Source of the DNA: a virus
Virus record (IMG/VR): IMGVR_UViG_3300050011_000379
Location: 1-32,065 of that record
Length of the DNA: 32,065 nt
Reading direction: 5' to 3' (one strand)
The notes beneath the pieces were generated by a model. That model did not search any database. It was not told where the DNA came from and saw only the letters and a list, made by a program, of their open reading frames with translations. A program made the translations under genes and the position numbers. Of the stretch, positions 13,201 to 31,177 are shown piece by piece; the stretch's first letter is position 1; the number at the start of each line of letters is the position of its first letter.

Positions 13201-13503
13201 ATGGTACAGAACGTTCTCGGGAAGTACTCGCACCTCGTCGTCGCCCCGGACGCCGGCGTGGACGTCGACCCCCATGGGGCGGCGGTGAACATCCACCGGC
13301 AGCTCGTGGGCATGCCCGGGCGTCCGTCCCCGTCGGGCCTGGCGGCCGTCAGCCCGGAGGTCGCGGCGCAGCTGCACTGGAACCAAATTGCGGGCCAGGT
13401 GGGTCTGCCCCAGGTCAACCCCGGGGAGACCCGGGCCGCCGTCAAGGGCTCCCTCGGGGACACCAGCCACGGGCGCCGTGGCACGTTTTCGTACGACATC
13501 TAA
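10222..13503 (+). CDS. terL: Terminase large subunit containing an intein
   Basis: The precursor is 1093 residues from GTG 10222; removing the intein (residues 187-601) leaves 678. The N-extein is the packaging ATPase: AARTALKT near 74-81 sits where the Walker A loop belongs but is atypical, and AVLVVDEVD just after the intein is Walker B. The C-extein carries the RNase H-like nuclease that cuts concatemers: GIDFGYSHNFSLVLGF near 836, PDTANP near 899 and DECDATRYM near 988 supply the acidic residues. The protein works with the small terminase at the portal. Intein codons are less GC-biased than extein codons, a sign of separate origin. The call is firm; the unusual Walker A is a reading by position. 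Confidence 0.9.
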   Translation: MPPPTIDEILRKALWAPCESKEALGRWVKLVLGVDLPDGHVDASSTSSPLEMLWEIYSTCRANGTEADRYMAYAARTALKTLTASIFEVLCLVHLDRDVVHLAAIVDQSQKAQDYFNAFFNRPMLRDFRTSKTTTYLEITRYVHVVTGEVLSPPAWKALQTDVERQDYDVHVGYIDITACTMQGTNCWADGSTVRTKDRGLVAIEEVRVGESVLGCDLHTGEDEWMPVGGLTSTSEKCALGLTFEDGARLFPSEDHPMFTDVGWLRARGMKSYFKVACRPAEERAPRHMLPPVEIQTEPEVVNPASVLLGTCLGDASLSWPRGRTGKPYGQGPRLHLRHSEDQEHLLRAVERAVRAFGLRCSTGVLNRDSSGYETDQEHLWLSSSVSERLVDLYRLLYPNGVKTITKELLELLDAEALAYWIMDDGCASHLNPVVAKDHPVTLATCCFSPGEHELMVEFFRSKWGLAAKRVVQGRHSLLVFDMRSSRAIADLVAPFMLPSMKYKLPVPQSMADSECLSCGRTTSTCASGFPRCGHCGTGEVKSQRYHGKLVKKLRGMCTATVVGMEFYGKARLWDLHIDTDKPHHRNFWVYCGARRFLAHNSKHAAVLVVDEVDVIEGEKVRAYEQAKAIPDAQRGKNPFVLYISTRKTNFGKVQAEIDAAETTGLVVRHWNIIDVTEPCPASRHEPGKPHVVLYRSEKTLRVLTEPDYAALDENRRKDFEPREAFWGCQHNCKLFGPCEGRLAIVRTDRKATTMKRLGNVTSMLRAMSTEMVIAELLCRKPGTEGLIYPSLDPDVHLLTAARMAEVILGEHVAEPFYQEQLVELMLARDFRPVAGIDFGYSHNFSLVLGFTDGNRLFVVDAYSQPELMPDKQVAAALRYLQPLQKEGLNPRFSARIYPDTANPQMIKVLIEAGLHCVRWQKTPGSVLAGIEAMRVSLGTLVGQPQLLFLRGNERVEFFFQRLSQYNWKREADGRPSDVPNDVNDDECDATRYMVQNVLGKYSHLVVAPDAGVDVDPHGAAVNIHRQLVGMPGRPSPSGLAAVSPEVAAQLHWNQIAGQVGLPQVNPGETRAAVKGSLGDTSHGRRGTFSYDI
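10780..12024 (+). other. Intein with LAGLIDADG-type endonuclease, inside TerL
   Basis: 415 residues. The N-terminal splicing residue is Cys (CWADGSTV, block A). Block B is at EDHPMF. The end is FLAHN followed by extein Ser, so splicing would use Cys1, the terminal His-Asn and Ser+1. Two dodecapeptide motifs, LLGTCLGDASL and LAYWIMDDGC, mark a LAGLIDADG homing endonuclease domain. Between that domain and the C-terminal splicing blocks lies an extra Cys-rich segment, CLSCG with CGHCG about 15 residues later, which could be a DNA-binding zinc ribbon. The insertion point, GTN-SKHAAVLVVDEVD, lies just before Walker B, a conserved site typical for inteins. Splicing looks intact from sequence. Confidence 0.93.
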
Positions 13504-16884: not shown

Positions 16885-18336
16885 ATGGACGTCTCCGTCG
16901 TCACCACCGAGGCCAAGGTCAAGGATGCCCTGCGGGGCTGTGGCTACGAGTTCGTCTCCGGTGAGCTTCGAAGCCGAAAATCGGTCTTCACGTACAAGTG
17001 CCCGAAGGGACATTCTGCCAAGTCATCTGTGGATAATTTTCTCACCGGCAAGCGATGTTGGGATTGCGCGGCCCTGGCTCGAGCTGCTGGATGTCGTCTT
17101 GGTCTAAAGGATGTAGCTGCGGTCCTTGCTTGCGATGGGTACGTCCTGCTTGAGTCCGAGTACGTCAACAACCACACATCTATGGCGTGTCGGTGTCCGC
17201 GTGGACACGTCTGGCGCGTGTGCCTGAACAACTTCAACCTTGGCCGGCGATGCGTCGTGGACTCTTGTGGAGATGGTCGCATTCACGGGTCGACGATGCC
17301 CTTTGCTGAGGCCGTTGTGCCAATCCTCGAAGCCGGATACGAGATTCTGTCCGGTGAGGTCGATTTCGAGAATACCCATTCTCGAGTGACATTGAGGTGT
17401 CCACAGGGGCACTCTCCATACGAGGTTCAGATTTACAATTTTCGCAATGGCCGCCGCTGCCCGGGTTGCGCTTGCCATTCCTCAACAGGGGAACGCGAGC
17501 TACGAGATTTTTTTGTGACGTTGGCACCGGATGCCGTATCTAATCGTACGGCCCTTGGGGTCGAGGTCGACGCACTCTCGTCTAGTCTCAAACTGGGTCT
17601 GGAGTACCACGGCTTGTACTGGCACTCCGAAGCTGCAGGCAAGGCCAGGCGCTACCACGCTGACAAGGCAGACGCTGCCGATGCTCATGGCGTGAAGCTC
17701 TTGCAGTTCTTCGAGGACGAGTGGCGGGACAAGCGCCCGCTGGTTGAGGCCCTAGTAACCAAGGCTGCTGGGGCGGTAACACTGGAGAAGCACCACGCTA
17801 GGGCTTTGACATGGCGCGAGGTTTCTGTGCAGGAACGCCGGGGCTTCTTCGAGGCCAACCATCTCCAAGGTGACGCTCGGGCGTCCGTGGCTTGGGGGCT
17901 CTTCGCCGGCGAGCAGCTGCTGCAGGTCCTCTCTCTTCGAAAGGCGGGGTACACCGGCGGCAAGCCCTTCTGGGAGATAGCTCGCACAGCTACGAAGACC
18001 GGTGCGCAAGTCGTCGGTGGTCTCTCGAGACTCCTGGCTCACGCCAAGCCCTGGCTGGTCGCCCGTGGCGTCCAGCAGCTCTTCACCTTTGCGGACCGGC
18101 GCTACTCCCAGGGGAAGTCCTACCTGGCCGTGGGCTTCACGCCGCTGGGCAAGACCTCCCCGGGATACGCCTACACGGACTTCCACTCGCGGCGTCATCG
18201 CTTTGCCCTGAGGAAGGACAAGGAGTGCCCCGTCGGCATGGGCGAGCGCGAGTACCGCCTTGCGCAGGGTCTGCATCGAATCTGGGACGCGGGCCAACTG
18301 AAGTTCGTCCTGGACCTGAGCACCGACCATGCCTAG
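16885..18336 (+). CDS. Free-standing homing endonuclease, zinc-ribbon repeats plus EDxHD/Vsr-like nuclease
   Basis: This encodes 483 residues from ATG 16885. The N-terminal part holds three repeats of about 65 residues, each with a zinc-knuckle start (YKCPKGH, CRCPRGH, LRCPQGH) and a later Cys pair (CWDC, CVVDSC, CPGC); these usually read DNA. Then VEVDALSSSLKLGLEYHGLYWH and HADKADAADAHGVKLLQFFEDEW resemble the Vsr/EDxHD nuclease core of I-Bth0305I-like phage enzymes. The last 180 residues are a further domain (YTGGKPFWEIARTAT, FTFADRRYSQGKSYLAVGF) often seen after this nuclease. Codon use is less GC-rich than the structural genes. It lies between portal and MuF genes and overlaps the latter's start by 8 nt. 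Family call good; exact target unknown. Confidence 0.75.
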   Translation: MDVSVVTTEAKVKDALRGCGYEFVSGELRSRKSVFTYKCPKGHSAKSSVDNFLTGKRCWDCAALARAAGCRLGLKDVAAVLACDGYVLLESEYVNNHTSMACRCPRGHVWRVCLNNFNLGRRCVVDSCGDGRIHGSTMPFAEAVVPILEAGYEILSGEVDFENTHSRVTLRCPQGHSPYEVQIYNFRNGRRCPGCACHSSTGERELRDFFVTLAPDAVSNRTALGVEVDALSSSLKLGLEYHGLYWHSEAAGKARRYHADKADAADAHGVKLLQFFEDEWRDKRPLVEALVTKAAGAVTLEKHHARALTWREVSVQERRGFFEANHLQGDARASVAWGLFAGEQLLQVLSLRKAGYTGGKPFWEIARTATKTGAQVVGGLSRLLAHAKPWLVARGVQQLFTFADRRYSQGKSYLAVGFTPLGKTSPGYAYTDFHSRRHRFALRKDKECPVGMGEREYRLAQGLHRIWDAGQLKFVLDLSTDHA

Positions 18337-19177
18337 ACAGCCGATGGGCGCCACCGCCCAGGACATCATCGGCCGCAAGGTGGACGCGCTTTTCGACGCC
18401 CTCAAGCTCCGCTACCTGGGCCCGGGGGCGTTCCCCCGCGGGGACAAGTCCTTGGTCCTGGCCTGGCACGCGCCGGAGCTGTCGTTGCCGGGGGTGTTGC
18501 GCAGCGCCTCCGCCCTGGAGGGTGTCCGGCCCGACCCGGGCACGGAGGACACGCTGGTGCGCCTCGCCTCGGGGTTCCTGGACGCCACGAGGGAGCGCAC
18601 CAAGGCGCAGGTGCTCCGGGCCGTGACGTCCTTCCTCACGCAGGCCCAGACGTCTGGCGTCAAGACGAACCTCGAGACGGTGCTCGGCGGGGAGCTGGCG
18701 AAGGTCTTCGCGGACACGCGCAAGCAGGTGTTCACCGTCCTCGACGCCGAGACGGCGACGGCGAAGAACGTCGGGCTCATGGACGGGCTCACGAGGGTCA
18801 ACGCGCACCTAGGCATTGCCGACCCCACGGTGTACTTCGTCGTCGTCCACGACGCCGAGCTATGCCAGGAGTGCCGGGCCATCCACCTCCTCGAGGACGG
18901 GCTCACGCCGAGGCTGTGGCTGCTCTCCGAGGTCGTCCAGGGCTACCACAAGCGGGGCGTCGACCGGCCTTCTATTGGCGGACTTCATCCGCATTGTCGT
19001 TGCACCCTGTGCTCGCTCATGCCCGGCTACGGGTTCACCGCCGGCGGCATGGTCGAATACAAGTCCCCGGACTGGAACGAGTTCGAGCGCCAGCGGGGTC
19101 TGGGGAAGAGCGAGTTGGGCGTCGTAGACCTCGTGAAGGGTGTGGCTACGCTGGCGCGCACCGAGAAGGTCGAGTAG
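18329..19177 (+). CDS. MuF/SPP1 gp7-type head morphogenesis protein
   Basis: This encodes 282 residues from ATG 18329, which lies inside the end of the homing endonuclease gene. The MuF signature is near residues 172-224: HDAELCQECRAIHLLEDG, then GGLHPHCRCTLCSLMPGY, where the Cys/His set probably binds zinc. The N-terminal part is helical. Proteins of this type are minor head components that associate with the portal and can enter the host with the DNA. Directly following the portal is the usual place, apart from the inserted endonuclease. Overlap with the intruder means its ribosome binding site now lies within foreign DNA. Confidence 0.8.
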   Translation: MPRQPMGATAQDIIGRKVDALFDALKLRYLGPGAFPRGDKSLVLAWHAPELSLPGVLRSASALEGVRPDPGTEDTLVRLASGFLDATRERTKAQVLRAVTSFLTQAQTSGVKTNLETVLGGELAKVFADTRKQVFTVLDAETATAKNVGLMDGLTRVNAHLGIADPTVYFVVVHDAELCQECRAIHLLEDGLTPRLWLLSEVVQGYHKRGVDRPSIGGLHPHCRCTLCSLMPGYGFTAGGMVEYKSPDWNEFERQRGLGKSELGVVDLVKGVATLARTEKVE

Positions 19178-19183
19178 CGCTCT

Positions 19184-19190
19184 CAATCTA
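19184..19190 (+). promoter_or_regulatory. CAATCTA motif before the kelch-like gene
   Basis: CTCTCAATCTAGG lies 6 nt after the MuF stop codon. It is followed by a 50-nt leader with a hairpin (19200-19216) before ATG 19241. This copy lacks the GG usually seen before CAATCTA. Confidence 0.5.
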
Positions 19191-19199
19191 GGGGCTGTC

Positions 19200-19216
19200 C
19201 GCATCTCGCGGATGCG
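19200..19216 (+). other. Hairpin in the leader of the kelch-like gene
   Basis: CGCATC and GATGCG pair around a 5-nt loop TCGCG. No T-run follows, so it is not a simple terminator. It could protect the 5' end of the message or space the ribosome binding site (AAAGGGTG near 19226). Confidence 0.4.
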
Positions 19217-19240
19217 AACGTCCCTCGAAAGGGTGCTCCC

Positions 19241-21667
19241 ATGCTCGGCTGGCAGACCTCGACCTCCGTCCTCCCCGTAGCCCTCTCTGGTCACGAAGCC
19301 TTCGCCTTCGGGCGCCGGGTGTTCGTCCTCGGTGGCACCCCGGATGGCGCCACGGCCAACCCCCAGTGCTACTCCGCGGTCGTCTCCCAGGGCGGGGACC
19401 TCGGGCAGTTCCAGGCCACGGCCTCGGTTCCGCCCTCGCTGGAGACCGGCGGCACCCTCATCGACTTCGGGTTCGCGCAGAACCCCAGCCGCAAGGACCT
19501 CGTGTACGTCCTCGGGGGCAGCGACCCCACGGGGGCCACGCCCTACGCGGGGACGTTCATCGGCCGTGCGAACACCGACGGGGGCCTGACGTGGACCCCG
19601 GGGCAGCCCCTCCCGGCTCCCCTGGCGGGCGTGAAGGCCGCCATCTGCGGGGACTGGCTGTACGCCATCGGCGGGGACCCGTTGAGCGGAGCCACCGTGG
19701 GCATCGTCTCCGCCGTCGCCGGGGACATCGCGCTCGCCAAGGGCAGCGGCAACGCCGTGACGTTGACGCTAAGCGTCAACACCGTCCCCGCGGAGACCGT
19801 CAACGCCGCGGCCACGGTTGCCGCCGGGCAGGCGCAGGCGAGCCTCGCGAACACCCCGACGGTCGTCGCCGGCCCGGAGGCTCAGCCGAGCCTCAACGGC
19901 GTCGGCGGCATCACCACGGTGTACACGAGCACGCCCGCTCACACGAAGCTCGTCCCTGGCACGGTGGTCCTCACGGAGACTGACAACGGGGGCGGCAACG
20001 GCCCTTGGACGGACGACGGCGCCGGGAACATCGCCGCCGCCGGAGCCGACGGCTCGGGGGATGCCTTCACGGGCACCGTGAATTACGTCACGGGCGTCAT
20101 CACGTTGACGTTCGCCATTGCCTCCAACGCGGCGACGCGCTTCACGCTGGCCTACAGCTACGACGCGGCTCTGGTGTTCACCACGACCCCGCATGCCCTG
20201 CTCGTTCCGGGCACGGTGGTGTTGCACGACAGTATCGGGCCCTCCGGGCCCTTCACCGACGACGGCGCCGGGAACATCTCCGGGACTTCCGCTGGGCAGG
20301 CCTGGACGGGGGTCATCAACTACGTCTCGGGGCTCATTACCATGACCTTCGCGGTTCCCCCGTCCGCTTCGGCCTGGACTGCGGACTACCACTGGCGGAA
20401 CGCCACGACGGTGTTCACCACGACCCCGCATGCCCTGCTCGTTCCGGGCACGGTGGTGTTGCACGACAGCGCCGGCCCCACGGGACCCTTCACAGACGAC
20501 GGCTCGGGGGCCATCTCCGGGACGTCCGGCGGCCAGGCTTGGACGGCGACCGTCAACTACATCACGGGTCTCATTACCCTGACCTACGCCGCGGCCCCCA
20601 CGGCCGCGACCTGGACCGCGGACTACCACTGGGACGCGAGCATGTCCCTGGCGCATACCCTGGCGGACCCCACGCCCGTGCTGTCGACGGTCATCCTCTA
20701 CGACGGGGTCACGCACTTCCCCGCGGTCGCCGGGGTCTTCGCCGGGGGCACGAGCTTCGGCGCCCCCTGGACGGGGACCGTGGACACCAGCGGCCACGTG
20801 GCCATCACCTTCACGGGCGTCCACCCGCCGGCCCTGGGGGTCTTCACCGTCGCCTACCAGTTCTCGGCGTTCACGTCCGGGCAGGTCGCCGGGGAGTTGC
20901 TCGTCATCCCCAGCTCGTCGGTGCTCGTCACCACGGGGCCGCACGCCACCAATGCCGGCGTGTACCAGGTCACGGGCACGAGCAGCTCCACGGTCATCCA
21001 CGCGACCAAAATCCGGAACATCGGCGACACCGCGGTGGTGACGGCCCCCGTGACCCAGGCCGCGGTGGCCGTGGGGGCGACCGGGGACGTCGAGGTCGCC
21101 GCCGACGACTTCCCGGCGCTGGCCTCGGTCTTTGCCGCCAAGCTCCAGTCCGACGGGAGCCTGGGGGCGTGGGTGCGCGGCACCGACTGCCCGGCGGCCT
21201 TCACGGGCACGCCCTTGACCGGGCACCTGGCGCTGGGCACGCGCAAGTACCTGTACGTCGTCGGCGGCCAGCCCGAGGCCGTCGGTGGGTCCCAGCTCAT
21301 CTACCGGGGCACGCCCGAGGCGGGCACCACGGGCTTCAACATCAAGTGGGACCTGCAGGGCTTCGGGCTCGACGGCATCCGCGTCGGCGCCGGGGCACCG
21401 ACGCTCTTCCCCGGGAAGTTCATCGTCGCCGGCGGGAGCACGGACGGCACCGCGGCCAACGCCCTGGCGACCTGCGACGAGAGCCTCGCGAATCCCGACG
21501 GCAGCGTTCGCGCCGCCTCCCAGGGGTCCCAGCTCCCGGCGCCGGTGCTCGGGCCGAAGCTCGTGGTCTGCAACGGCTGGCTGTTCTCCATCGGCGGCCA
21601 GGACGTCTCCGCGGTTCAGCTGGCGACCATCGCCCAGGCGCAGCTCCAGTCAGACGGCAGCTTCTAG
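19241..21667 (+). CDS. Kelch-like beta-propeller virion protein with inserted repeat domains
   Basis: This encodes 808 residues from ATG 19241. Kelch-type blades appear at the start (AFAFGRRVFVLGGTPDGA, DLVYVLGGSDP, GDWLYAIGGDP) and again at the end (KYLYVVGGQPEAVGG, FPGKFIVAGGSTDG, NGWLFSIGGQDVS). Between them lie three copies of a beta domain of about 80 residues, with core text LVPGTVVL, GPFTDDG, GxISG, GQAWT, VNYxxGLIT and WTADYHW; the first copy is the most divergent. Such repeats are common in phage fibres and appendages. The protein is probably exposed on the virion, for binding host surface or sugar. It is the only gene of its CAATCTA unit. Confidence 0.7.
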   Translation: MLGWQTSTSVLPVALSGHEAFAFGRRVFVLGGTPDGATANPQCYSAVVSQGGDLGQFQATASVPPSLETGGTLIDFGFAQNPSRKDLVYVLGGSDPTGATPYAGTFIGRANTDGGLTWTPGQPLPAPLAGVKAAICGDWLYAIGGDPLSGATVGIVSAVAGDIALAKGSGNAVTLTLSVNTVPAETVNAAATVAAGQAQASLANTPTVVAGPEAQPSLNGVGGITTVYTSTPAHTKLVPGTVVLTETDNGGGNGPWTDDGAGNIAAAGADGSGDAFTGTVNYVTGVITLTFAIASNAATRFTLAYSYDAALVFTTTPHALLVPGTVVLHDSIGPSGPFTDDGAGNISGTSAGQAWTGVINYVSGLITMTFAVPPSASAWTADYHWRNATTVFTTTPHALLVPGTVVLHDSAGPTGPFTDDGSGAISGTSGGQAWTATVNYITGLITLTYAAAPTAATWTADYHWDASMSLAHTLADPTPVLSTVILYDGVTHFPAVAGVFAGGTSFGAPWTGTVDTSGHVAITFTGVHPPALGVFTVAYQFSAFTSGQVAGELLVIPSSSVLVTTGPHATNAGVYQVTGTSSSTVIHATKIRNIGDTAVVTAPVTQAAVAVGATGDVEVAADDFPALASVFAAKLQSDGSLGAWVRGTDCPAAFTGTPLTGHLALGTRKYLYVVGGQPEAVGGSQLIYRGTPEAGTTGFNIKWDLQGFGLDGIRVGAGAPTLFPGKFIVAGGSTDGTAANALATCDESLANPDGSVRAASQGSQLPAPVLGPKLVVCNGWLFSIGGQDVSAVQLATIAQAQLQSDGSF
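20173..20232 (+). repeat. 60-bp exact direct repeat, copy 1
   Basis: The 60 bases at 20173-20232 recur exactly at 20410-20469, 237 bp (79 codons) downstream and in frame. They encode VFTTTPHALLVPGTVVLHDS, so the repeat domain was duplicated recently or is kept uniform by gene conversion. Confidence 0.92.
20410..20469 (+). repeat. 60-bp exact direct repeat, copy 2
   Basis: Second copy of the unit at 20173-20232. Recombination between the two would remove exactly one 79-residue domain without a frameshift, giving length variants of the protein. Confidence 0.92.
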
Positions 21668-21731: not shown

Positions 21732-22355
21732 ATGAAAACTCCACTTTCTGAAGAGCAGAAGACCGCCAAGCTCGAATACAAGCGCGAGCTGGCCCGTCAG
21801 CGTTCGGCCCGGCGCCGGCGAGAGAACCCCGAGAAGGCTCGCGCAGAGGCCAGAGAGTGGCGCAAGAAGAATCCCGAGAAGGCTCGTGCAATTTCTAAAC
21901 GAACTCGAGAGAAGAACAAAGACAAAATCCGGGCTAGCCAACGGCGATGGGTGGAAGAGAATCGCGAGTACGTTCGTTCCCAAGGGAAGGCACGCTACTT
22001 ACGAACCAGAGATACGGTTCGTGAAGCGAACTGGTTTAAGAGCTACGGCATTACTCCTGAGTGGTATGTCGCTACGCTGGCCGCTCAGGGTGGTGGCTGT
22101 GCAATATGTGGCGCCACCGCCCCTGGTCATGGAAGCTTCTTTTGTGTCGACCATGACCACAAGACCGGTGCCAATAGGGGATTACTCTGCCTGCACTGCA
22201 ATGTCGGTCTTGGTAATTTTAGAGATGACGTAGGACTTCTTGTTCTGGCTGAGGGGTACCTCAGACGTCATCTCGGAGCCGAAGCCCTACCGGAAATCGC
22301 AGAGAGCCGTCCCCGGTTCGCCCTTGGAATTGCACCTCAAGCTGGCGTCCAATAG
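21732..22355 (+). CDS. HNH endonuclease, recombination endonuclease VII type
   Basis: This encodes 207 residues from ATG 21732. A highly charged N-terminal helical region has repeats of the ENPEKAR.. type (31-37 and 47-53). Then comes the endonuclease VII module: CAIC at 123-126, VDHDHKTGANRGLLCLHCN at 139-157 (catalytic His-Asp plus the second Cys pair of the zinc site), and NFRDD. T4 endonuclease VII resolves branched DNA; many stand-alone relatives with such N-terminal repeats are homing nucleases, which I think likelier here. Codon use is less GC-rich than in neighbours. The last 32 codons lie antisense over the 3' end of the ligase gene, so the C-terminal tail is probably not native to the family. 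Confidence 0.8.
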   Translation: MKTPLSEEQKTAKLEYKRELARQRSARRRRENPEKARAEAREWRKKNPEKARAISKRTREKNKDKIRASQRRWVEENREYVRSQGKARYLRTRDTVREANWFKSYGITPEWYVATLAAQGGGCAICGATAPGHGSFFCVDHDHKTGANRGLLCLHCNVGLGNFRDDVGLLVLAEGYLRRHLGAEALPEIAESRPRFALGIAPQAGVQ

Positions 22356-24123: not shown

Positions 24124-24669
24124 TTAGGCTCCTGTCTTGCGGAAGACAATGGCTTCGTGGGTGAGTTCCAGCTCCGTGCGGACGAGGGCTACCCTGGCGA
24201 TGCGTGCGGACATCAGGTCCCGAGCCGAGCCTCCGTGATACATTCCTGGCGCGGTATCCTGGGGGTAGTAGTCGCGGTCGTGGGGCATGGCTGCTTGAAT
24301 GGCTAGCTCGGCGGTTCGGAGGGTCTCGCAGGCGTGCTCCAGCTGGGCCAGGAGGTCCGCCTCGCTGGTGCCGTTGGAGTGCACCGTGGGGACGGCAAGT
24401 GGTCCGGGGACGTCGACGACGCGCTCGCCCTCCTCCTCGAGCTGGCGTCCCGCCGCCGAGCGCAGCTCCCGTAGGTCGTCGGCGTTGAGGCTCGCGCAGG
24501 CCATGAGAAATGGTGCCTTGGCCCCGCGGGTGGCCTGGTGGAGGTTCCCCCGGACTTGAAGGCACCAGCTTTGCGAGGATTGACGGTAGAGCCGGATGGC
24601 ACCCTCGGGCTTGATGTCCGGTAGCTTCTTTGCTTCGGTGGGGACTGGCCGGTAGAAGTTTTCGCTCAT
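24124..24669 (-). CDS. Protein of unknown function, early block
   Basis: This encodes 181 residues from ATG 24669, which follows the stop of a 28-codon remnant by 2 nt. The N-terminal part has short beta strands (AIRLYRQSSQSWCLQVRG) and then helices. The central part LLAQLEHACETLRTAELAIQAAM and the end RIARVALVRTELELTHEAIVF are amphipathic helices, possibly a coiled coil. No family recognised. Confidence 0.6.
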   Translation of the reverse strand: MSENFYRPVPTEAKKLPDIKPEGAIRLYRQSSQSWCLQVRGNLHQATRGAKAPFLMACASLNADDLRELRSAAGRQLEEEGERVVDVPGPLAVPTVHSNGTSEADLLAQLEHACETLRTAELAIQAAMPHDRDYYPQDTAPGMYHGGSARDLMSARIARVALVRTELELTHEAIVFRKTGA

Positions 24670-24671
24670 GG

Positions 24672-24758
24672 CTAGGCGACCTTCTTCTCCACGGGGGTGT
24701 TCTCCGTGGAGTACAGCGGGGGCAAGGACTTCATCGCGGCTTTGGTCATGAGCTTCAT
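24672..24758 (-). pseudogene. 28-codon remnant matching the N-terminus of DUF2958
   Basis: ATG 24758 opens MKLMTKAAMKSLPPLYSTEN and stops eight codons later at TAG. From memory the DUF2958 family begins with kLmTkel-kxLPpLYsTe and goes on with a VxVKFFxP strand and about 80 more residues. The match stops exactly where that strand should begin. Neither of the other two frames downstream continues the family. It still has a near-consensus promoter (24795-24823) and may persist as a leader peptide for the gene at 24669. Confidence 0.5.
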
Positions 24759-24794
24759 GGGGCGGTCTCCGGGGTTCGGGTGGCGTCTGTGGTG

Positions 24795-24823
24795 AGTATA
24801 GGCCCCTTCGGAGGCGGTGTCAA
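24795..24823 (-). promoter_or_regulatory. Near-consensus sigma-70 promoter
   Basis: On the minus strand TTGACA (24818-24823), 17 nt, then TATACT (24795-24800). It would drive the leftward early block from the DUF2958 remnant to the ligase. Confidence 0.85.
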
Positions 24824-24826
24824 GCC

Positions 24827-25261
24827 CTATTCGGAATAGGTCATGGTCCAGAACGGCGCCGGCCGCTCGTCGTCGACCTGGCACCTGGCCCCGAGGGGCT
24901 CCATGGGCTCGGCCTTGCCGGAGAAGACGTTGAACTTCTGCAGGACCGCGGAGGAGAAGTACTCGAAGCTCCGGCTTACCATGACCACGGGGTCCTGCCC
25001 GGGGCGCACGTGCCGCCAGGCCTCGACGGTCTGCTTCTGCTCGAAGACGTCCACGGCTCCGTCCTTGACCTTGACCTTCGCGAGCATGGCGTCCACGAGG
25101 GCCTGCAGTTCCTCGGCGGCCAGGGGCTCGAGCTGGTCCTGGGCGAGCTTGAAGCACTTGGACTTGACGGTGCGGTTGCGCCCGAAGACCCCGCGGACGC
25201 GGAGGCTGTACTCGAGGACCTTCTGGGGCTTGCCTGGGGTGGGGACGGCGGTGGTCGTCAT
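24827..25261 (-). CDS. Protein of unknown function, first gene of the leftward early block
   Basis: This encodes 144 residues from ATG 25261 with AAGGAG upstream. The start is Thr/Pro-rich, followed by strand-like KVLEYSLRVRGVFG, a helix QLEPLAAEELQALVDAML, and the end ARCQVDDERPAPFWTMTYSE. It has its own promoter at 25300-25328. The stop is 4 nt before the -35 of the next promoter. No family recognised. Confidence 0.6.
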   Translation of the reverse strand: MTTTAVPTPGKPQKVLEYSLRVRGVFGRNRTVKSKCFKLAQDQLEPLAAEELQALVDAMLAKVKVKDGAVDVFEQKQTVEAWRHVRPGQDPVVMVSRSFEYFSSAVLQKFNVFSGKAEPMEPLGARCQVDDERPAPFWTMTYSE

Positions 25262-25299
25262 GGTGGGCTCCTTGGTGCGAGGTTCACGCTGCAGGACGG

Positions 25300-25328
25300 A
25301 GTGTATACCCCCCGGGAGGCCCTGTCAA
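25300..25328 (-). promoter_or_regulatory. Near-consensus sigma-70 promoter
   Basis: On the minus strand TTGACA (25323-25328), 17 nt, then TACACT (25300-25305). GGGCTTGACA is shared with the promoter at 24795-24823. It lies back to back with the CAATCTA motif at 25347. Confidence 0.8.
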
Positions 25329-25346
25329 GCCCTTTCGGTGGTGCGG

Positions 25347-25353
25347 CAATCTA
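25347..25353 (+). promoter_or_regulatory. CAATCTA motif before the protease fusion gene
   Basis: GCGGCAATCTACC. The motif ends exactly 6 nt before ATG 25360, and no ribosome binding site is present in between. Confidence 0.6.
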
Positions 25354-25359
25354 CCCCCT

Positions 25360-28300
25360 ATGCTTGACCTGGACAAGATTCACGGAATGGTGGTTGACGG
25401 AATTTGTGCGTCTGCTGCGGTAGACAGTTCAGGAGAGGTGCTCGACATCCGCGGCGCCGACTGTAGCGACATGTACAATAACACCTGCCCGATTAATTAC
25501 GAGCACAAGAATCCTGACGACCCCGGGAACTCCGCGTTGGACATCGTGGGGCGCATTGTCTACGGGAAGAAGCTCTACTCCCTGGACGACTGCGAGACCT
25601 CCAGGCAGAAGGAGTTCTTCGAGAAGGTCAAGCTCCCGTGCATCTACTTCATCGGCGTGCTCGCCGACGAGGCCGGGCACCTGGGCGCGCAGTCCGCGGC
25701 CGCGCTCATCCGCAACGACGTCGCCAACGGCTTCGTGCCGCTCTGCCGCTGGAGCGTGGAGGGCAGTACCTTGGAGACTGCCGACAGCGGTCACAAGCTC
25801 GTGCGCTCCGTCGTACGCAGGGTGGCCCTGACCCTGAAGCCGTGTAATAGAAGTGTACAAACTGGGATTCTCGCCGACCCCGCGGCTCCCCCGAAGTTCG
25901 AGGTCAAGACGAAGGTCGACAAGCCCACGGAGGACCTCCTGGCCGGGCTGGCGGAGAAGCTCACCGCCAAGTCGACGTTCAAGTCCGAGGCCGACGGGCT
26001 CATGTACCGGAAGCTCGGCAGCTCCTGGGAGGACGCCTACGACCCATGTGTGAAGGCCCTCGAGGCCGGCATGCCCACGGGCGCCCCGTCGACGCTCACT
26101 GGCGGGGCCGCGCTCCAGCGTGAGGACATCTCCGAGCGGGCGCGGCGCATCCACGACGTCACGAACCGCGCGAAATCCGTCGTAAGGGACTGGTGGGGCT
26201 CCGGGGGAAAGGACGACATTCGGACCGTGCTGAAGATGCAGCTCCCCGAGGTCAGCCCGGAGTTCATCGAGCGTTTTTCTAGCGTCGTCGATGACTACCG
26301 GTTGAAGAACGCCGGCAAGGGCATGCTCAAGGTCGAGGACCTCCTGGACTTCTCGAGCCTGGAGAAGCGCGCCAAGGCCAAGCCTCCGGAGGAGTTGCCC
26401 GTCCAGGACAACGTCGAGCCCGAGGGCGGGGGTGACACGGACTTCGACACGGAGGCCCTGGAGGCCAAGGCCGGCAAGACCCAGCTGCCGCCGCCGAGCA
26501 AGTACCTGGAGGCGCACCGGCACCTCCCGGGGCCGCTGCCGACGCCCACCAGCCGCGCCCGGGCGTACTTCGACCCGGACAAGGGGGTGCTGCACACGCA
26601 GCTGGGCAGCTACCCCATGGCCATCCCCAGCGACGCCATGTACCGGGCCATCCTCGAGTCCCCGGCGGTGCAGCGTCCCCACGAGGAGGCGATGCGTCAC
26701 TGGCTGCACCTGCACAAGCTCCTCGCCGCGGGGAAGCTCCCCCCGGAAGTCATGATGCACGCCGCGCTCTTCTCCGGGCAGTCCAGCAGCGAGAAGGTCC
26801 CCATGCAGGAGATAGGTTTCTCGCATCTCCAGGACCAGATTGCCCGCGGCGCCGACCCCTCGCGGCCCGGTGGCGTCGGGAAGCATCACATCGCCGCCTA
26901 CAAGCAGGGCATCCTCGGCAACTCCGGGCTGCCGGAGTTCGAGCGCGAGCACTGGGCCGGTCCGGGGGGAGACGCGACGCGCGTCGGCCCGGATAGCGTC
27001 ACCGGCAAGCCCGAGGGCGCGCAGGCGTCGATGATGTACCCGACGCAGAAGGTCGACAACATCCTCAGCTACCACGAGCTGCACCCGGACCTCGTGAGGC
27101 TCCTGGGCCAGCACGGCGTCGATGCCCGGACCATCGCGAACAAGCTCATCCAGCAAAAGCAGGACGCGCGGAAGTACGCGGGCGTGGCCGCCCGCAAGGA
27201 GAAGGGACCGCTGGGCGTGCGCCAGCCGAGCTTCCAGGAGGCCACGGGCACGTCCCGGGTCCCGGGGTTCGCGCCGAAGACCATCCGGTACATGCTCGGG
27301 ATGATGGGTGCCGGGAACGCCCACGTCCCGGACACGCACTTCATCCGACACGTGTTCGGCCTGCCGACGGACTCCCAGGTCCGGGACGAGACCGAGGCGG
27401 AGCTGGGTCGGCCGCTGGGACCGGGTGAGAAGCCCTACGCGCCGAACGCCCACCTGAAGAACGTCATGTGGTACGGCCCCGGGGCCGGGCACATCGGCGA
27501 CGCCATCGACCGCTTCTACGGCGCCCACCACCCGGCGGTGGCCATGGTCCGGGACCGTTACGGGAAGCAGCTCGCCGGCCCCGACCAGGCCATCTTCCCG
27601 GGGTTCTGGGCGCACTGGCTGTCCATCGCCCCCCACGAGGGTCAGCAGGGCATCGCCAACTACGCGAGCAACGCCGAGACGAACCACAGCGTGTACTGGC
27701 GTGCCGTCGAGCACGTGCTCCAGCACTACGGCCTCAACGAGGACCTCGGCAAGGGCGAGGTGGGCCTGCACGACGCCGGCTCGGCTCCCGAGGGTATCCG
27801 GGCGCTGCCTCTGCACATGCGCACGTTCCTCGCGCAGAAGTCCATGGAGGGCCTGCTGGGGGAGACCCCGGCGTCGCTGTTCTACGCGCAGAAGCTGTTG
27901 CCGATGCTCCTCGCGGCCAAGCTCGGGGTCACCACCAGCGCCCCCGCCGCCGCGGCGGCCGTCGCCAAGGCCGAGGCCCTGGCGGTGAACCTCGGGGCGC
28001 TGACGCAGGCCCTGCGCAAGGCCGAGGAGGACCAGCAGGCCGGCGTGGAGACCTACCAAGGGCAGCGCGTCAAGCCTGGCTACTTGCACATGGCGTCCCC
28101 GCATCCTAAGACCGGCGAGCAGCGCTTCGTCGTCCTGGGTGCGACGCCGCGGGAGTTCGTGGGCCACTGGCCGTCGTCCCCGGAGAAGCTCGAGAGCGTG
28201 CACATCGACGACAGCCTGGAAGGCTTGCCGCCGTATCACGTGCTCGCATGGCCAAAACCCGCGGAGAGCAAGTCCTTCGTTATCCAGGCCGAGCACGGCA

Positions 28301-29244
28301 TCCCCGAGGTGACGCACCACCCGGAGCAGAAGCGCCTGCTCCACGGCCTGCGCACCGAGACTCGCGCCTCCGCACCGGCTCACGCCATCGGCCGCGGCAT
28401 CAAGGGCGTGCACGAGAACGCCTTCAGCCGCCCCGGCGATGCCTTCTGGACGCAGGGCCCCGCGGGCCAGCCGGTGTTCGTGAAGCGCAGCCTCGACACC
28501 AACACCAAGGACTTCGACGAGGCGCGACGCGAGGCGGCCTACTACAACCTCGGCAAGGAGTACTTCGGCCTAGGCGACTACCTGACGCCGACGGCGGCGT
28601 ACACGCACCCCATAACGGGGCAGAACTACAGCGTTTCCGAGGGCGTCAGCGACGCCGAGCACTGGGACGAGAAGTCCGAGGCTCACAGGGCCGTGCTCGC
28701 CGGGCTACACGGTGCCGGAGAGGCGGACAAGCTCCAGCTGATGAATGGCATCATGGGCAACACCGACAGGCACGGGCACAACTACGTGTTCTCCAAGGCG
28801 GCACGCGGGGGACTGAAGCTCATCGACCACGGGCGCACGCTCTTCCACAGTGAGAACCGCGGCTTCCGGCCGGCGGCGTACATGTGGCATCACCTGGACC
28901 CGAGGAACCCCTTCATGCACTCCGCGGTGCCCGTGCATCCCCTGGCGCAGCAGTGGCTCCACGGGCTGCCTACCGCGGGTATCGTCGCAGCTGCAGCTGC
29001 CTCGGGGATGTCCAGCGCGTACCAGCTGGAGCTGCTCGAGCGCCTCACGACGGCCAAGGCGGTCCTCAGGGCTAACCCCAGTGCCACGTACAACGACATC
29101 GGAGACGGCATCTACCGCGTCAACGAGGTCTCGCGGCGCCTACGCGCAGACGCCTCCTCCGCGGCGCAGGCCGCGCCCGCGGTACCGCCAGTGCCGGAAA
29201 CCCAGCCAGCGCGTAAGCTCCGAGGCGACGCTCATGCCAAATAG
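25360..29244 (+). CDS. Prohead protease fused to HhH-GPD glycosylase-like and HipA/PI-kinase-like domains
   Basis: 1294 residues from ATG 25360. Residues 1-180 resemble T4 gp21-type prohead proteases: INYEHKN (His 49), LPCIYFIGVL, then CRWSVEGSTL (probable Ser 132) and RRVALTLKPCN. Residues about 180-380 are helical, charged linker. Residues about 380-800 hold a second domain; VPGFAPKTIRYMLGMMG (634-650) and VPDTHFIRHVFGL (656-668) resemble the helix-hairpin-helix and catalytic Asp of endonuclease III, with Lys 640 and Asp 658 at the catalytic places. Residues about 1030-1200 look like a HipA/PI4K-type kinase: FVKRS (Lys 1042), DEARRE, GNTDRHGHN (Asp 1136, Asn 1141), LIDHG (Asp 1156). The protease call is good, the kinase fair, the glycosylase-like region tentative. 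It overlaps the next gene by 11 nt. Confidence 0.7.
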   Translation: MLDLDKIHGMVVDGICASAAVDSSGEVLDIRGADCSDMYNNTCPINYEHKNPDDPGNSALDIVGRIVYGKKLYSLDDCETSRQKEFFEKVKLPCIYFIGVLADEAGHLGAQSAAALIRNDVANGFVPLCRWSVEGSTLETADSGHKLVRSVVRRVALTLKPCNRSVQTGILADPAAPPKFEVKTKVDKPTEDLLAGLAEKLTAKSTFKSEADGLMYRKLGSSWEDAYDPCVKALEAGMPTGAPSTLTGGAALQREDISERARRIHDVTNRAKSVVRDWWGSGGKDDIRTVLKMQLPEVSPEFIERFSSVVDDYRLKNAGKGMLKVEDLLDFSSLEKRAKAKPPEELPVQDNVEPEGGGDTDFDTEALEAKAGKTQLPPPSKYLEAHRHLPGPLPTPTSRARAYFDPDKGVLHTQLGSYPMAIPSDAMYRAILESPAVQRPHEEAMRHWLHLHKLLAAGKLPPEVMMHAALFSGQSSSEKVPMQEIGFSHLQDQIARGADPSRPGGVGKHHIAAYKQGILGNSGLPEFEREHWAGPGGDATRVGPDSVTGKPEGAQASMMYPTQKVDNILSYHELHPDLVRLLGQHGVDARTIANKLIQQKQDARKYAGVAARKEKGPLGVRQPSFQEATGTSRVPGFAPKTIRYMLGMMGAGNAHVPDTHFIRHVFGLPTDSQVRDETEAELGRPLGPGEKPYAPNAHLKNVMWYGPGAGHIGDAIDRFYGAHHPAVAMVRDRYGKQLAGPDQAIFPGFWAHWLSIAPHEGQQGIANYASNAETNHSVYWRAVEHVLQHYGLNEDLGKGEVGLHDAGSAPEGIRALPLHMRTFLAQKSMEGLLGETPASLFYAQKLLPMLLAAKLGVTTSAPAAAAAVAKAEALAVNLGALTQALRKAEEDQQAGVETYQGQRVKPGYLHMASPHPKTGEQRFVVLGATPREFVGHWPSSPEKLESVHIDDSLEGLPPYHVLAWPKPAESKSFVIQAEHGIPEVTHHPEQKRLLHGLRTETRASAPAHAIGRGIKGVHENAFSRPGDAFWTQGPAGQPVFVKRSLDTNTKDFDEARREAAYYNLGKEYFGLGDYLTPTAAYTHPITGQNYSVSEGVSDAEHWDEKSEAHRAVLAGLHGAGEADKLQLMNGIMGNTDRHGHNYVFSKAARGGLKLIDHGRTLFHSENRGFRPAAYMWHHLDPRNPFMHSAVPVHPLAQQWLHGLPTAGIVAAAAASGMSSAYQLELLERLTTAKAVLRANPSATYNDIGDGIYRVNEVSRRLRADASSAAQAAPAVPPVPETQPARKLRGDAHAK

Positions 29245-31177
29245 CGGCGACACGTACTCTGTCTTCAGGCTCACCCACGGCCAGCATGGCCTCGAGCACC
29301 AGCTCGCCGGACGCTTCTTCTTCGACCCCGAGGGAGCCATTGTCGTCCTTGAGGACTACCACGGGCTGTTGCAGGGCCTCAGCGGCCCGGTGACGTCCGC
29401 CAGCCAGGCGCTGCTGGCCTCGCTGTCGCGCAGCGCCTACACGGAGGTCGTGCGCACGGCCGACCTCCACGATGGCAGCCGCCCGGAGTTGCTGCCCGAG
29501 GTCGACACCGGACCAGCTTCAGGGAATGCCCTCCAGGGTGCCCCAGTGGCTCCAGGCGGCGTTCCCCAGCTCCCGCCCGTGTGGGACTACCACCGTCCGG
29601 GCATGGAGACGCCGTCCTGCCTGGAGTGGCACCGGGGCACAGGCACGGCCCTCCTCAACGGCCAGGCCCTGGGGGACGAGGAGCTGCAGCAGCTGCTGCA
29701 GAACCTCGCCGAAGGCACGGCGACCCTCAGGTACCGGGGTACTGCTGCCCTTCCCGGCGTGGCAAAGATGGAGGCCGCCCTCGGCGGCGAGCCCTTGCTG
29801 CTGCTGCAGAAGGGCGAGGACCCGGCCAACGACGACCTCGAGGAGGACGCCGGCATGCCCGGGGTGGGCAACAGGTACGCGTACGCACAGTGGCTACCCA
29901 AGGCCGGCCCCGGCGGCGTGCACCTGGCGCTGGACGCCAACAACTTCTCGGCCGTCAACGAAGCCTACGGGCAGAAGGTCGGGGACGAGGCGCTGGCGGC
30001 CATCGGCAGGGCGATGCGCTCCGCCCTCGGGGAAGTCGCGGGGAAGAAGGAGACGCACCTCTTCCGCCTCGGCGGCGACAACTTCATGGCGTACGTGCCC
30101 ACGTTCGAGCACGCGGCGCACTTCGCCCGGGCCCTGCGGTCCCGCCTGGAGGCCATCCCCGCCGTGGGGGGCACGCACCAGCTGGGGATGTCCTTGGGCA
30201 TGGGTGACAGCCCCGGGGTGGCCCAGAGGTCCTTGCAGGAGCACCGCGCCACCCCTGGGGCTAGAGACGCTGTCCTGGGGGCACACAGTCTGGTCCCGGG
30301 GCATACTCACGGGTTTGTCGGCACCGCGGGAGCACGAGCACTCCGGGGAGGAACTCCACGGGGGCCTCGACGACCGTCACCCCGGGGAGAGGTTCCGTCT
30401 CTGGACGCCGCGCCGACGGCCACGCTCCAGCGTCCCCACGAGGAAGCGCCACACGTGGGCCCCACGAGCTGCACCGCGGGTAACCCCGACTGTGGGCGTG
30501 ACGCCAAGGAGATGGACGCCGAGACCCGAGCCGAGATTCTCCAGAGCGACGTCGACGAGCCCCTACCTGGTGCCAGTCGTTGCCCGAGGTGCTTGGGCTG
30601 GGCGGAGAAACCGAAGTTCCAGTCGCTCCAGGGCGGCGGCCAGACCACGGCTCCGACGTCCCCGGGGCTGAAGCTCGTCAAGGCCGAGGGAAACCAGCGG
30701 GGACTGTGCCCCGCGGGGAACCCCAGGTGTTTGGAGGAGACCGCGCATTGGGATAGTCTTGGGCCGGAAGAGAGGCAGTACCATGTGGGCCCCTTCAGCG
30801 GCGAGGGGGACATCCCGGCTTTGCGGGGGGAGCAGCAGTGCCCCGGGTGCCTGGAGTGGAGCAACCCTTGCCCTGCGGGCAATCCTGACTGCCGCGCCCA
30901 AGGGTGGGACCTTAAGGGGGCCGATGAGGGTTACTTGCAGCAGCACTTTCCTGTGCCCAAAGGTGAGGAGCACCAGGTTTGCCCGCGGTGCCATGAGACT
31001 CCGTCGACGGTCAAGACCAGGCCCGTGCCGACTAGGGGTTCTGGTTTTGCTGTCGACCAGCTGGCCGTGGACCGGGCTCTAGCGGCCCATCGAGCCGGGA
31101 AGCCTCCTCCTCCGGTGGTTCTTCCCGGCGGCGGCCAGACCACGGCTCCGGCGTCCCCGGGGCTGAAGCTCGTCTAG
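29234..31177 (+). CDS. GGDEF-like protein with three tandem zinc-binding repeats
   Basis: 647 residues from ATG 29234. Residues about 205-335 follow the GGDEF fold: MPGVGNRYAY, VHLALDANNFSAVNEAYGQ (metal Asp 234), VGDEALAAIGRAMRSAL, then FRLGGDNF (278-284) and HQLGMSLGMGDS. The signature is GGDNF instead of GGDEF, the usual Lys after the NF is Ser, and no RxxD inhibitory site is seen, so cyclic-di-GMP synthesis is doubtful. Residues 412-590 hold three units, each C-T/P-AGNP-D/R-C followed 25-35 residues later by CPxC, likely zinc sites. Residues about 365-405 contain DNA copied from elsewhere in the genome. The gene overlaps the protease fusion and is probably a virion component. GGDEF call good; role unknown. 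Confidence 0.68.
   Translation: MPNSGDTYSVFRLTHGQHGLEHQLAGRFFFDPEGAIVVLEDYHGLLQGLSGPVTSASQALLASLSRSAYTEVVRTADLHDGSRPELLPEVDTGPASGNALQGAPVAPGGVPQLPPVWDYHRPGMETPSCLEWHRGTGTALLNGQALGDEELQQLLQNLAEGTATLRYRGTAALPGVAKMEAALGGEPLLLLQKGEDPANDDLEEDAGMPGVGNRYAYAQWLPKAGPGGVHLALDANNFSAVNEAYGQKVGDEALAAIGRAMRSALGEVAGKKETHLFRLGGDNFMAYVPTFEHAAHFARALRSRLEAIPAVGGTHQLGMSLGMGDSPGVAQRSLQEHRATPGARDAVLGAHSLVPGHTHGFVGTAGARALRGGTPRGPRRPSPRGEVPSLDAAPTATLQRPHEEAPHVGPTSCTAGNPDCGRDAKEMDAETRAEILQSDVDEPLPGASRCPRCLGWAEKPKFQSLQGGGQTTAPTSPGLKLVKAEGNQRGLCPAGNPRCLEETAHWDSLGPEERQYHVGPFSGEGDIPALRGEQQCPGCLEWSNPCPAGNPDCRAQGWDLKGADEGYLQQHFPVPKGEEHQVCPRCHETPSTVKTRPVPTRGSGFAVDQLAVDRALAAHRAGKPPPPVVLPGGGQTTAPASPGLKLV
30326..30388 (-). repeat. 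63-bp inverted repeat, copy in the GGDEF-like gene
   Basis: Reverse complement of 7961-8023 from the phosphoesterase gene, 62 of 63 bases identical. Read rightward here it encodes low-complexity Arg/Gly/Pro text, unlike a folded domain, so this copy looks secondary. Confidence 0.9.
30632..30679 (+). repeat. 48-bp direct repeat, copy 1
   Basis: The 48 bases recur at 31127-31174 with one mismatch, 495 bp (165 codons) downstream and in frame, encoding GGGQTTAPTSPGLKLV here. The two copies bracket the second and third zinc repeats. Confidence 0.92.
31127..31174 (+). repeat. 48-bp direct repeat, copy 2, at the gene end
   Basis: Copy of 30632-30679 ending one base before the stop codon; it encodes GGGQTTAPASPGLKLV, the final 16 residues of the protein. 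Recombination between copies would delete two zinc units in frame. Confidence 0.92.

Follow-up and report, generated by a model that had tools for sequence, protein, structure and literature searches.

A Single Reading Frame Joining Protease, Glycosylase-Like and Kinase-Like Modules

The virus record IMGVR_UViG_3300050011_000379 of IMG/VR, a stretch of 32,065 bases analyzed here from position 1 to its end and referred to as the window, carries at 25360-29244 an open reading frame that begins with an ATG and continues without interruption for 1294 residues; this frame, its parts and the GGDEF gene adjacent to it are on the plus strand. The encoded protein is a fusion in which a predicted prohead protease is followed by a copy of the N-terminal arm of the major capsid protein (MCP), a short helical segment, an OGG2-like glycosylase, a small β domain and a PI4K/HipA-like kinase. 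The cultured Myxococcus phage Mx1 encodes a full-length homologue of 1239 residues, WNM70322.1, labelled “putative prohead protease” (31.8% identity, E 2e-134), and the family described here consists of the window, Mx1 and 19 IMG/VR loci found by alignment-based scans of viral contigs, which yielded 8 loci and then 19. The existence of the Mx1 homologue and of the 19 loci makes a chance open reading frame untenable. Similarly, the three modules share a single frame in Mx1 and in loci L005-L008, L011, L012, L016, L018/L019 and L020, so that no hidden frameshift has wrongly joined them in the window. A first-pass annotation made from the window alone had described three modules in one 1294-residue frame and had named a frameshift or stop between them as one of two dangers to that view, the other being predicted structures unlike HhH-GPD and kinase folds; the description stands, and the uninterrupted frame, together with the one-frame relatives, rules such a break out.

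The phages carrying the fusion are myxobacterial-type phages, and several of the loci lie on contigs of 165-172 kb. No relatives of the fusion were recovered from plasmids or in a single scan covering contigs of bacterial and archaeal genomes. The window sequence is itself a poor query: alone, it retrieved zero relatives in the scan of viral contigs, searches of Pfam, PHROGs and PDB sequences with its protein returned next to nothing, and the evidence for the individual domains emerged only once relatives had been gathered.

Head Maturation Protease Module and Gene Context

The first module, an SPO1-type prohead (head maturation) protease domain, spans residues 9-178 (25384-25893) and contains the catalytic residues His49 and Ser132, which are invariant in all 20 protease domains of the family. 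The head maturation protease family phrog_1028 is matched by 14 of these 20 members with a best E of 1.5e-7, the window member alone falling under the threshold. No Pfam peptidase family matches any member of the fusion family, and the link to T4 gp21 (peptidase S77) is for this reason unsupported by sequence. The earlier proposal of a gp21-like protease with His49 and Ser132 survives as to the type of enzyme and its two residues, with no sequence link to gp21 found. The nearest family is that of the SPO1-type head maturation proteases (phrog_1028); the MCP and its N-terminal arm are of SPO1 type as well. Proteolysis is the predicted activity of the module.

The surrounding genes are those of a head cluster. 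In relatives, the MCP adjoining the fusion is of the SPO1 gp6.1 type; in the window, a portal gene lies upstream of the fusion and the sequence ends before any MCP. The order portal-protease-MCP in Mx1 is that of SPO1, where a scaffold gene is found between protease and MCP. Two genes are inserted between portal and protease in the window, encoding an HNH/CapR-type endonuclease (16885-18336) and an endonuclease VII (21732-22355), neither of which is annotated at the equivalent places in Mx1. Further upstream, the frame of the terminase large subunit (10222-13503, terminase part matching phrog_5653) is broken by a HINT region that resembles an intein and includes a LAGLIDADG endonuclease (PF03161, E 2e-22). 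Separately, the protease domains of three family members weakly match phrog_617, annotated as “major head protein” (best E 4e-4).

An OGG2-Like Glycosylase Module

The core of the second module occupies residues 423-776 (26626-27687) and was modelled with AlphaFold2 on 17 sequences, with a predicted local distance difference test score (pLDDT) of 78.7. Structural comparison with VIA-align places the model closest to the OGG2 8-oxoguanine glycosylases, with Z scores of 15.2 for 3knt and 15.1 for both 3fhg and 3n0u; it superposes on 3knt with a root-mean-square deviation of 3.1 over 204 of 205 residues, at an identity to OGG2 enzymes of 6-12%. Lower Z scores are reached by hOGG1 (9.8), by AGOG (6.0) and, between these two, by the DUF2419 queuine salvage enzyme (8.4), and the first unrelated row lies below 5. 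The top eight structural matches are all either HhH-GPD glycosylases or the DUF2419 enzyme. Lys640 (27277-27279) and Asp658 (27331-27333), with a spacing of 18, are invariant in the 17 sequences, as are Gln483, Glu484 and others. An hhalign comparison with Nth of Escherichia coli carries little statistical weight (probability 8%, P 0.004), yet it brings Lys640/Asp658 into register with K120/D138. The module thus has an HhH-GPD fold of OGG2-like type in its predicted structure, and base excision is its putative activity. The HhH-GPD-like region around Lys640 and Asp658 that had been recognized from the window alone is borne out; its pair does occupy the positions of the catalytic residues of endonuclease III, although the closest solved relatives are OGG2 enzymes rather than endonuclease III.

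In two relatives, the glycosylase domain is interrupted by intein-like insertions (L008:11414-12601 and L010:11987-13249), which match the intein splicing domain PF14890 at E ~2e-6, under the Pfam cut-off; L010 has a further insertion at 11288-11956 with no Pfam match. The L008 and L010 insertions are placed in or beside the conserved SPNTPVPMQE motif of the domain.

The Kinase-Like Module, Its GGDEF Neighbor and Domain Exchange

The third module, at residues 980-1255 (28297-29124), is a PI4K-II/HipA-like kinase in its predicted fold, and its activity is putative. The family PF00454 (PI3_PI4_kinase) is matched by 10 of the 11 kinase domains (best E 7e-8), although on its own the window member stays below the cut-off, with 14.3 bits against 27.1. 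The structural model (pLDDT 75.9) retrieves PI4K-II in Foldseek at E 4.7e-5, and VIA-align ranks PI4KIIb (Z 16.6) ahead of CtkA (12.9), Fam20C1 (12.6), HipT (12.4) and HipA (10.9). Ten of the 11 domains retain the whole set of Lys1042, Glu1058, Asp1136, Asn1141 and Asp1156; the remaining one, in L008, is degenerate and has lost three of the five. Four of these residues (all but Glu1058) had been singled out in the first-pass annotation as marking a kinase-like domain, and that assignment is upheld.

Immediately downstream, and overlapping the fusion by 11 bases, lies a gene for a GGDEF-domain protein (29234-31177; PF00990, E 1.2e-10). The active-site motif reads GGDNF in the window and GGDEF in most relatives; because most relatives keep the active motif, the head-cluster GGDEF protein may be an active nucleotide cyclase in those relatives. 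The small β domain of the fusion (residues 895-962, 28042-28245), recognized by matches of a hidden Markov model (HMM) in the fusions, has a related segment that opens some of the GGDEF proteins (weak HMM matches in L004 and L008).

The full set of protease, capsid-arm copy, helical segment, glycosylase-like domain, in most cases the small β domain, and kinase, with the GGDEF gene next to it, is found in the window, Mx1, L005, L006, L007, L008, L011, L012, L016, L018/L019 (identical to each other across the matched region) and L020. The kinase is absent and the GGDEF gene follows in L003 and L004; in five further loci (L009, L014, L015, L017 and L021) the GGDEF domain is fused behind the glycosylase and replaces the kinase. 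L013 is cut by the end of its contig. In L010, protease and glycosylase form one gene, and in the next gene the kinase is preceded by a second, incomplete copy of the glycosylase domain; this second copy (L010:14275-16308) is degenerate, and by inspection its catalytic Lys seems lost.

A Capsid-Arm Copy and Predicted Processing Sites

Directly behind the protease, residues 232-258 (26053-26133) read KALEAGMPTGAPSTLTGGAALQRED and match the N-terminus of the MCP in relatives; autocleavage is predicted after Lys232. The underlying pattern, K-A-L-E-A-G-x-x-x-x-A-P-x-x-L-x-x-G-x-A-L-Q-x-E-D, occurs twice in the relatives, once behind the protease and once as the N-terminus of that phage's own MCP, where it reads KAMEAG in Mx1. 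In the loci of relatives that reach the MCP, an HMM of the arm matches the fusion and the MCP and no other protein; the arm copy of the L010 fusion is degenerate and is missed by this HMM. Across the whole Mx1 genome, the same two proteins are the only ones matched (E 1.5e-21 and 2.8e-17; next 1.3). The Lys of the arm is invariant in all 37 aligned copies. Arm pairs within a phage are more similar than pairs across phages (permutation p 5e-5, uncorrected for phylogeny). An arm element common to protease and MCP is also present in SPO1 (gp3.2), Lysinibacillus LysYB1, Pseudomonas Dolphis and Yersinia fHe-Yen8-01, and, being shared by the protease/MCP pairs of these phages, is older than the fusion itself. 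The conserved helical segment that follows in the fusion (residues 258-320, 26131-26319) is kept in nearly all members and, compared by eye only, looks like the C-terminal tail of SPO1 gp3.2.

The position of the predicted cut comes from SPO1-type MCPs in the PDB, where a full-length chain (5lii, 463 amino acids) and a shorter one (9row, 439 amino acids) are deposited. When aligned to SPO1 gp6.1, the two chains differ in extent by 24 residues; 9row therefore starts directly after the Lys of the motif. From these deposited chains we infer a cleavage after Lys and before a small residue. Literature searches returned no paper on the specificity of SPO1-type proteases.

Conserved Lys residues followed by a small residue are found in the fusion at positions 232, 798 and 887, in addition to the catalytic Lys640. 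Lys798, invariant in 17 of 17 sequences and followed by a small residue and then usually by Glu, belongs to a predicted processing site, K798-G-E (27751-27759), in a disordered loop (pLDDT ~45) directly after the glycosylase core. A second such site, K887-A-E (28018-28026; Lys in 8 of 8), is predicted in the linker ahead of the β domain. More generally, K-[SAG]-E is enriched in the linkers of the fusions, with 39 occurrences against 9.8 expected (500 shuffles, maximum 19), and the control motifs are not: E-[SAG]-K occurs 7 times against 9.9 expected, R-[SAG]-E 5 against 5.9 and K-[VLIF]-E 8 against 8.3. In a count by Lys residue, the motif is found at 45 of 759 in linkers and at 6 of 753 in domain cores. 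In Mx1, the open reading frames of the head cluster contain 22 K-[SAG]-E motifs against 8.0 expected, compared with 25 against 31 in the other 191. The K-[SA] dipeptide alone does not clearly single out any head protein in the Mx1 proteome, and K-[SAG]-E performs better; in SPO1, the scaffold has an excess of K-[SA], with 14 against 4.8, and the tail sheath has none.

Two other Mx1 head-cluster proteins contain such sites, one with GNAT, ADP-ribosyltransferase (ART) and NUDIX domains (24404-28843) and one joining GNAT and kinase domains (28851-30710); several of the sites lie between domains and one lies inside NUDIX. The former is a 1479-amino-acid protein with GNAT, ART-PolyVal, NUDIX and ParB-like domains and has most of its K-[SAG]-E motifs between them. 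The phage with this ART-bearing head-cluster protein also has a salvage pair for nicotinamide adenine dinucleotide (NAD), annotated in OR576727.2 as nicotinamide-nucleotide adenylyltransferase (124119-124673) and nicotinamide phosphoribosyltransferase (126021-127421).

A Proposed Self-Processing Capsid Polyprotein

From the single frame, the predicted folds, the conserved catalytic residues, the capsid-arm copy and the motif enrichment, we infer a chain of cuts, packaging, ejection, enzyme activities and targets. The fusion is, with fair probability, a self-processing capsid polyprotein that is cut inside the prohead and whose glycosylase and kinase are packaged and ejected with the DNA, as the first-pass annotation had envisaged; the capsid-arm copy and the K-[SAG]-E linker sites, both read from sequence, suggest self-cleavage and packaging. 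The fusion would enter the prohead by means of its N-terminal SPO1-type protease and arm, and its protease would cut K-[SAG] sites directly after the Lys. One cut would fall at Lys232, inside the copy of the maturation arm of the coat protein, and the remaining ones at Lys798, Lys870/887 and Lys208, in interdomain linkers. Cutting would turn the two enzyme modules, OGG2-like glycosylase and PI4K/HipA-like kinase, into individual proteins within the head, to travel in the virion and be ejected together with the DNA. Once ejected, the glycosylase may act on damaged or modified bases of phage or host DNA, and the kinase may phosphorylate a host target.

Several points weigh against this scheme. 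The kinase is optional in the family, being absent or degenerate in some members. The cleavage rule is borrowed from the deposited chain of another phage, and the linkers in which the motif was counted are homologous, hence non-independent observations, and of low complexity. The glycosylase model has no significant Foldseek match (none below E 0.1), and no Pfam glycosylase profile matches the second module, including PF22175, a search with which does detect OGG2 in three control genomes; the glycosylase assignment consequently stems from the predicted fold together with the catalytic residues. A search of the open-access literature found no proteolysis, virion proteomics or enzyme results for the fusion family. 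Finally, release would be no proof of retention, because the propeptides of known phages generally exit the head after cutting.

This behavior of prohead-protease propeptides is also one of the reasons to consider that the fusion is an assembly or scaffolding protein, in which the glycosylase and kinase folds have been reused as DNA-binding or core-building parts of the prohead, to be removed or left inert with no delivery to the host. Other SPO1-type phages have a scaffold beside the protease or fused behind it, and the degenerate kinase of L008 and the second glycosylase copy of L010, which aligns only in part, would suit a structural role. Such a role is nevertheless unlikely: Lys640 and Asp658 are invariant (17/17), the kinase catalytic residues are retained (10/11), Mx1 has a separate scaffold-like gene (18798-19670), and the swapping of kinase and GGDEF domains fits cargo better than scaffold. 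Ejection is not required for catalysis to be conserved, and another alternative is that the modules work late in infection in the producing cell, for example in repair of phage DNA or in phosphorylation of capsid or host proteins at assembly, the fusion merely coupling their expression or location to head assembly. The location of the genes within the head cluster and the adjacent or fused nucleotide-cyclase gene would be compatible with it. We consider it quite unlikely, given that the predicted cut sites are similar to the site of prohead maturation and that their enrichment in Mx1 extends over the head cluster but not over the remaining proteins, which suggests processing inside the prohead. 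That the likeness to glycosylases reflects a common helical arrangement in an unrelated head protein is very improbable, for although sequence profiles and Foldseek find nothing and the hhalign probability with Nth is 8%, three of the eight leading structural matches reach Z 15 over the whole target, nothing unrelated reaches Z 5, and the invariant K-18-D pair aligns with that of Nth.

The self-processing polyprotein may belong to a more general system, in which the arm serves as a docking and cutting tag and the protease cuts K-[SAG]-E between domains both in itself and in other proteins of the head cluster, so that one head would deliver a glycosylase, a kinase, a nucleotide cyclase and an ADP-ribosyltransferase. 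The Mx1 protein at 24404-28843 is possibly another such cargo polyprotein, and that at 28851-30710 would be a further substrate; this wider scheme is put forward tentatively and falls somewhat short of probable. The sorting and readying of enzymes carried in phage heads are understood in few systems. Here, maturation protease and enzymatic cargo would form a single gene, with a visible address, the arm of the coat protein, and a predicted cutting rule that could enable sequence-based prediction of cargo in SPO1-type phages. A packaged glycosylase, if true, would be an unexpected route to protect or attack DNA as infection begins, and Mx1, which can be grown on Myxococcus xanthus, offers a test system.

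Comparison with Known Systems

In the open-access literature searched, neither the fusion of a prohead protease to a glycosylase or a kinase nor a capsid arm shared in this manner was found described, in keeping with the first-pass annotation, according to which no described protein is known to have this combination; the genome announcement of Mx1 leaves the fusion unmentioned. Two kinds of proteins to which it can be compared are already known, polyvalent proteins and protease-processed ejection proteins. Polyvalent phage proteins (Iyer et al. 2017; PMC5512222) combine domains such as kinases, ARTs and GNATs, whose delivery to the host is presumed; like the fusion, they assemble multiple effector-type domains in one phage protein. 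A text search of that paper finds neither glycosylase nor HipA, “prohead” and “protease” appear in one reference title only, and no capsid-arm cleavage signal is described in the passages covered, whereas the fusion brings its own processing protease (PMC5512222). Among processed ejection proteins, the gp245 protease of SPN3US trims off its own C-terminal propeptide and also processes proteins belonging to the ejected mass (PMC7411985, PMC10052503), and in T4 gp21 cuts Alt and the internal proteins, which are likewise ejected (as cited in PMC7411985 and PMC10052503). SPN3US/phiKZ and T4 thus resemble the proposed scheme in that a protease processes itself (SPN3US) and proteins co-ejected with DNA; they differ in that protease and cargo are encoded by separate genes, and SPN3US cuts after A-x-E, not after Lys.

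The individual modules also have well-described counterparts. The OGG2 glycosylases of M. jannaschii, S. solfataricus and T. maritima share with the second module the HhH-GPD fold over the full target and the Lys/Asp spacing of 18; in contrast, the module lies under the limit of profile detection, resides within a capsid polyprotein and has extra C-terminal helices. The type II PI4K, HipA and CtkA kinases share the fold and the Lys-Glu-Asp-Asn-Asp catalytic set of the third module, which unlike them is phage-encoded and joined to a protease. The closest parallel for the N-terminal part is gp3.2 of SPO1 (Herelleviridae), a protease of related type encoded between portal and MCP and bearing a copy of the MCP arm behind its protease domain. 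However, gp3.2 is a protein of 256 amino acids with a short tail, whereas in the fusion the protease is followed by ~1000 residues of enzyme domains.

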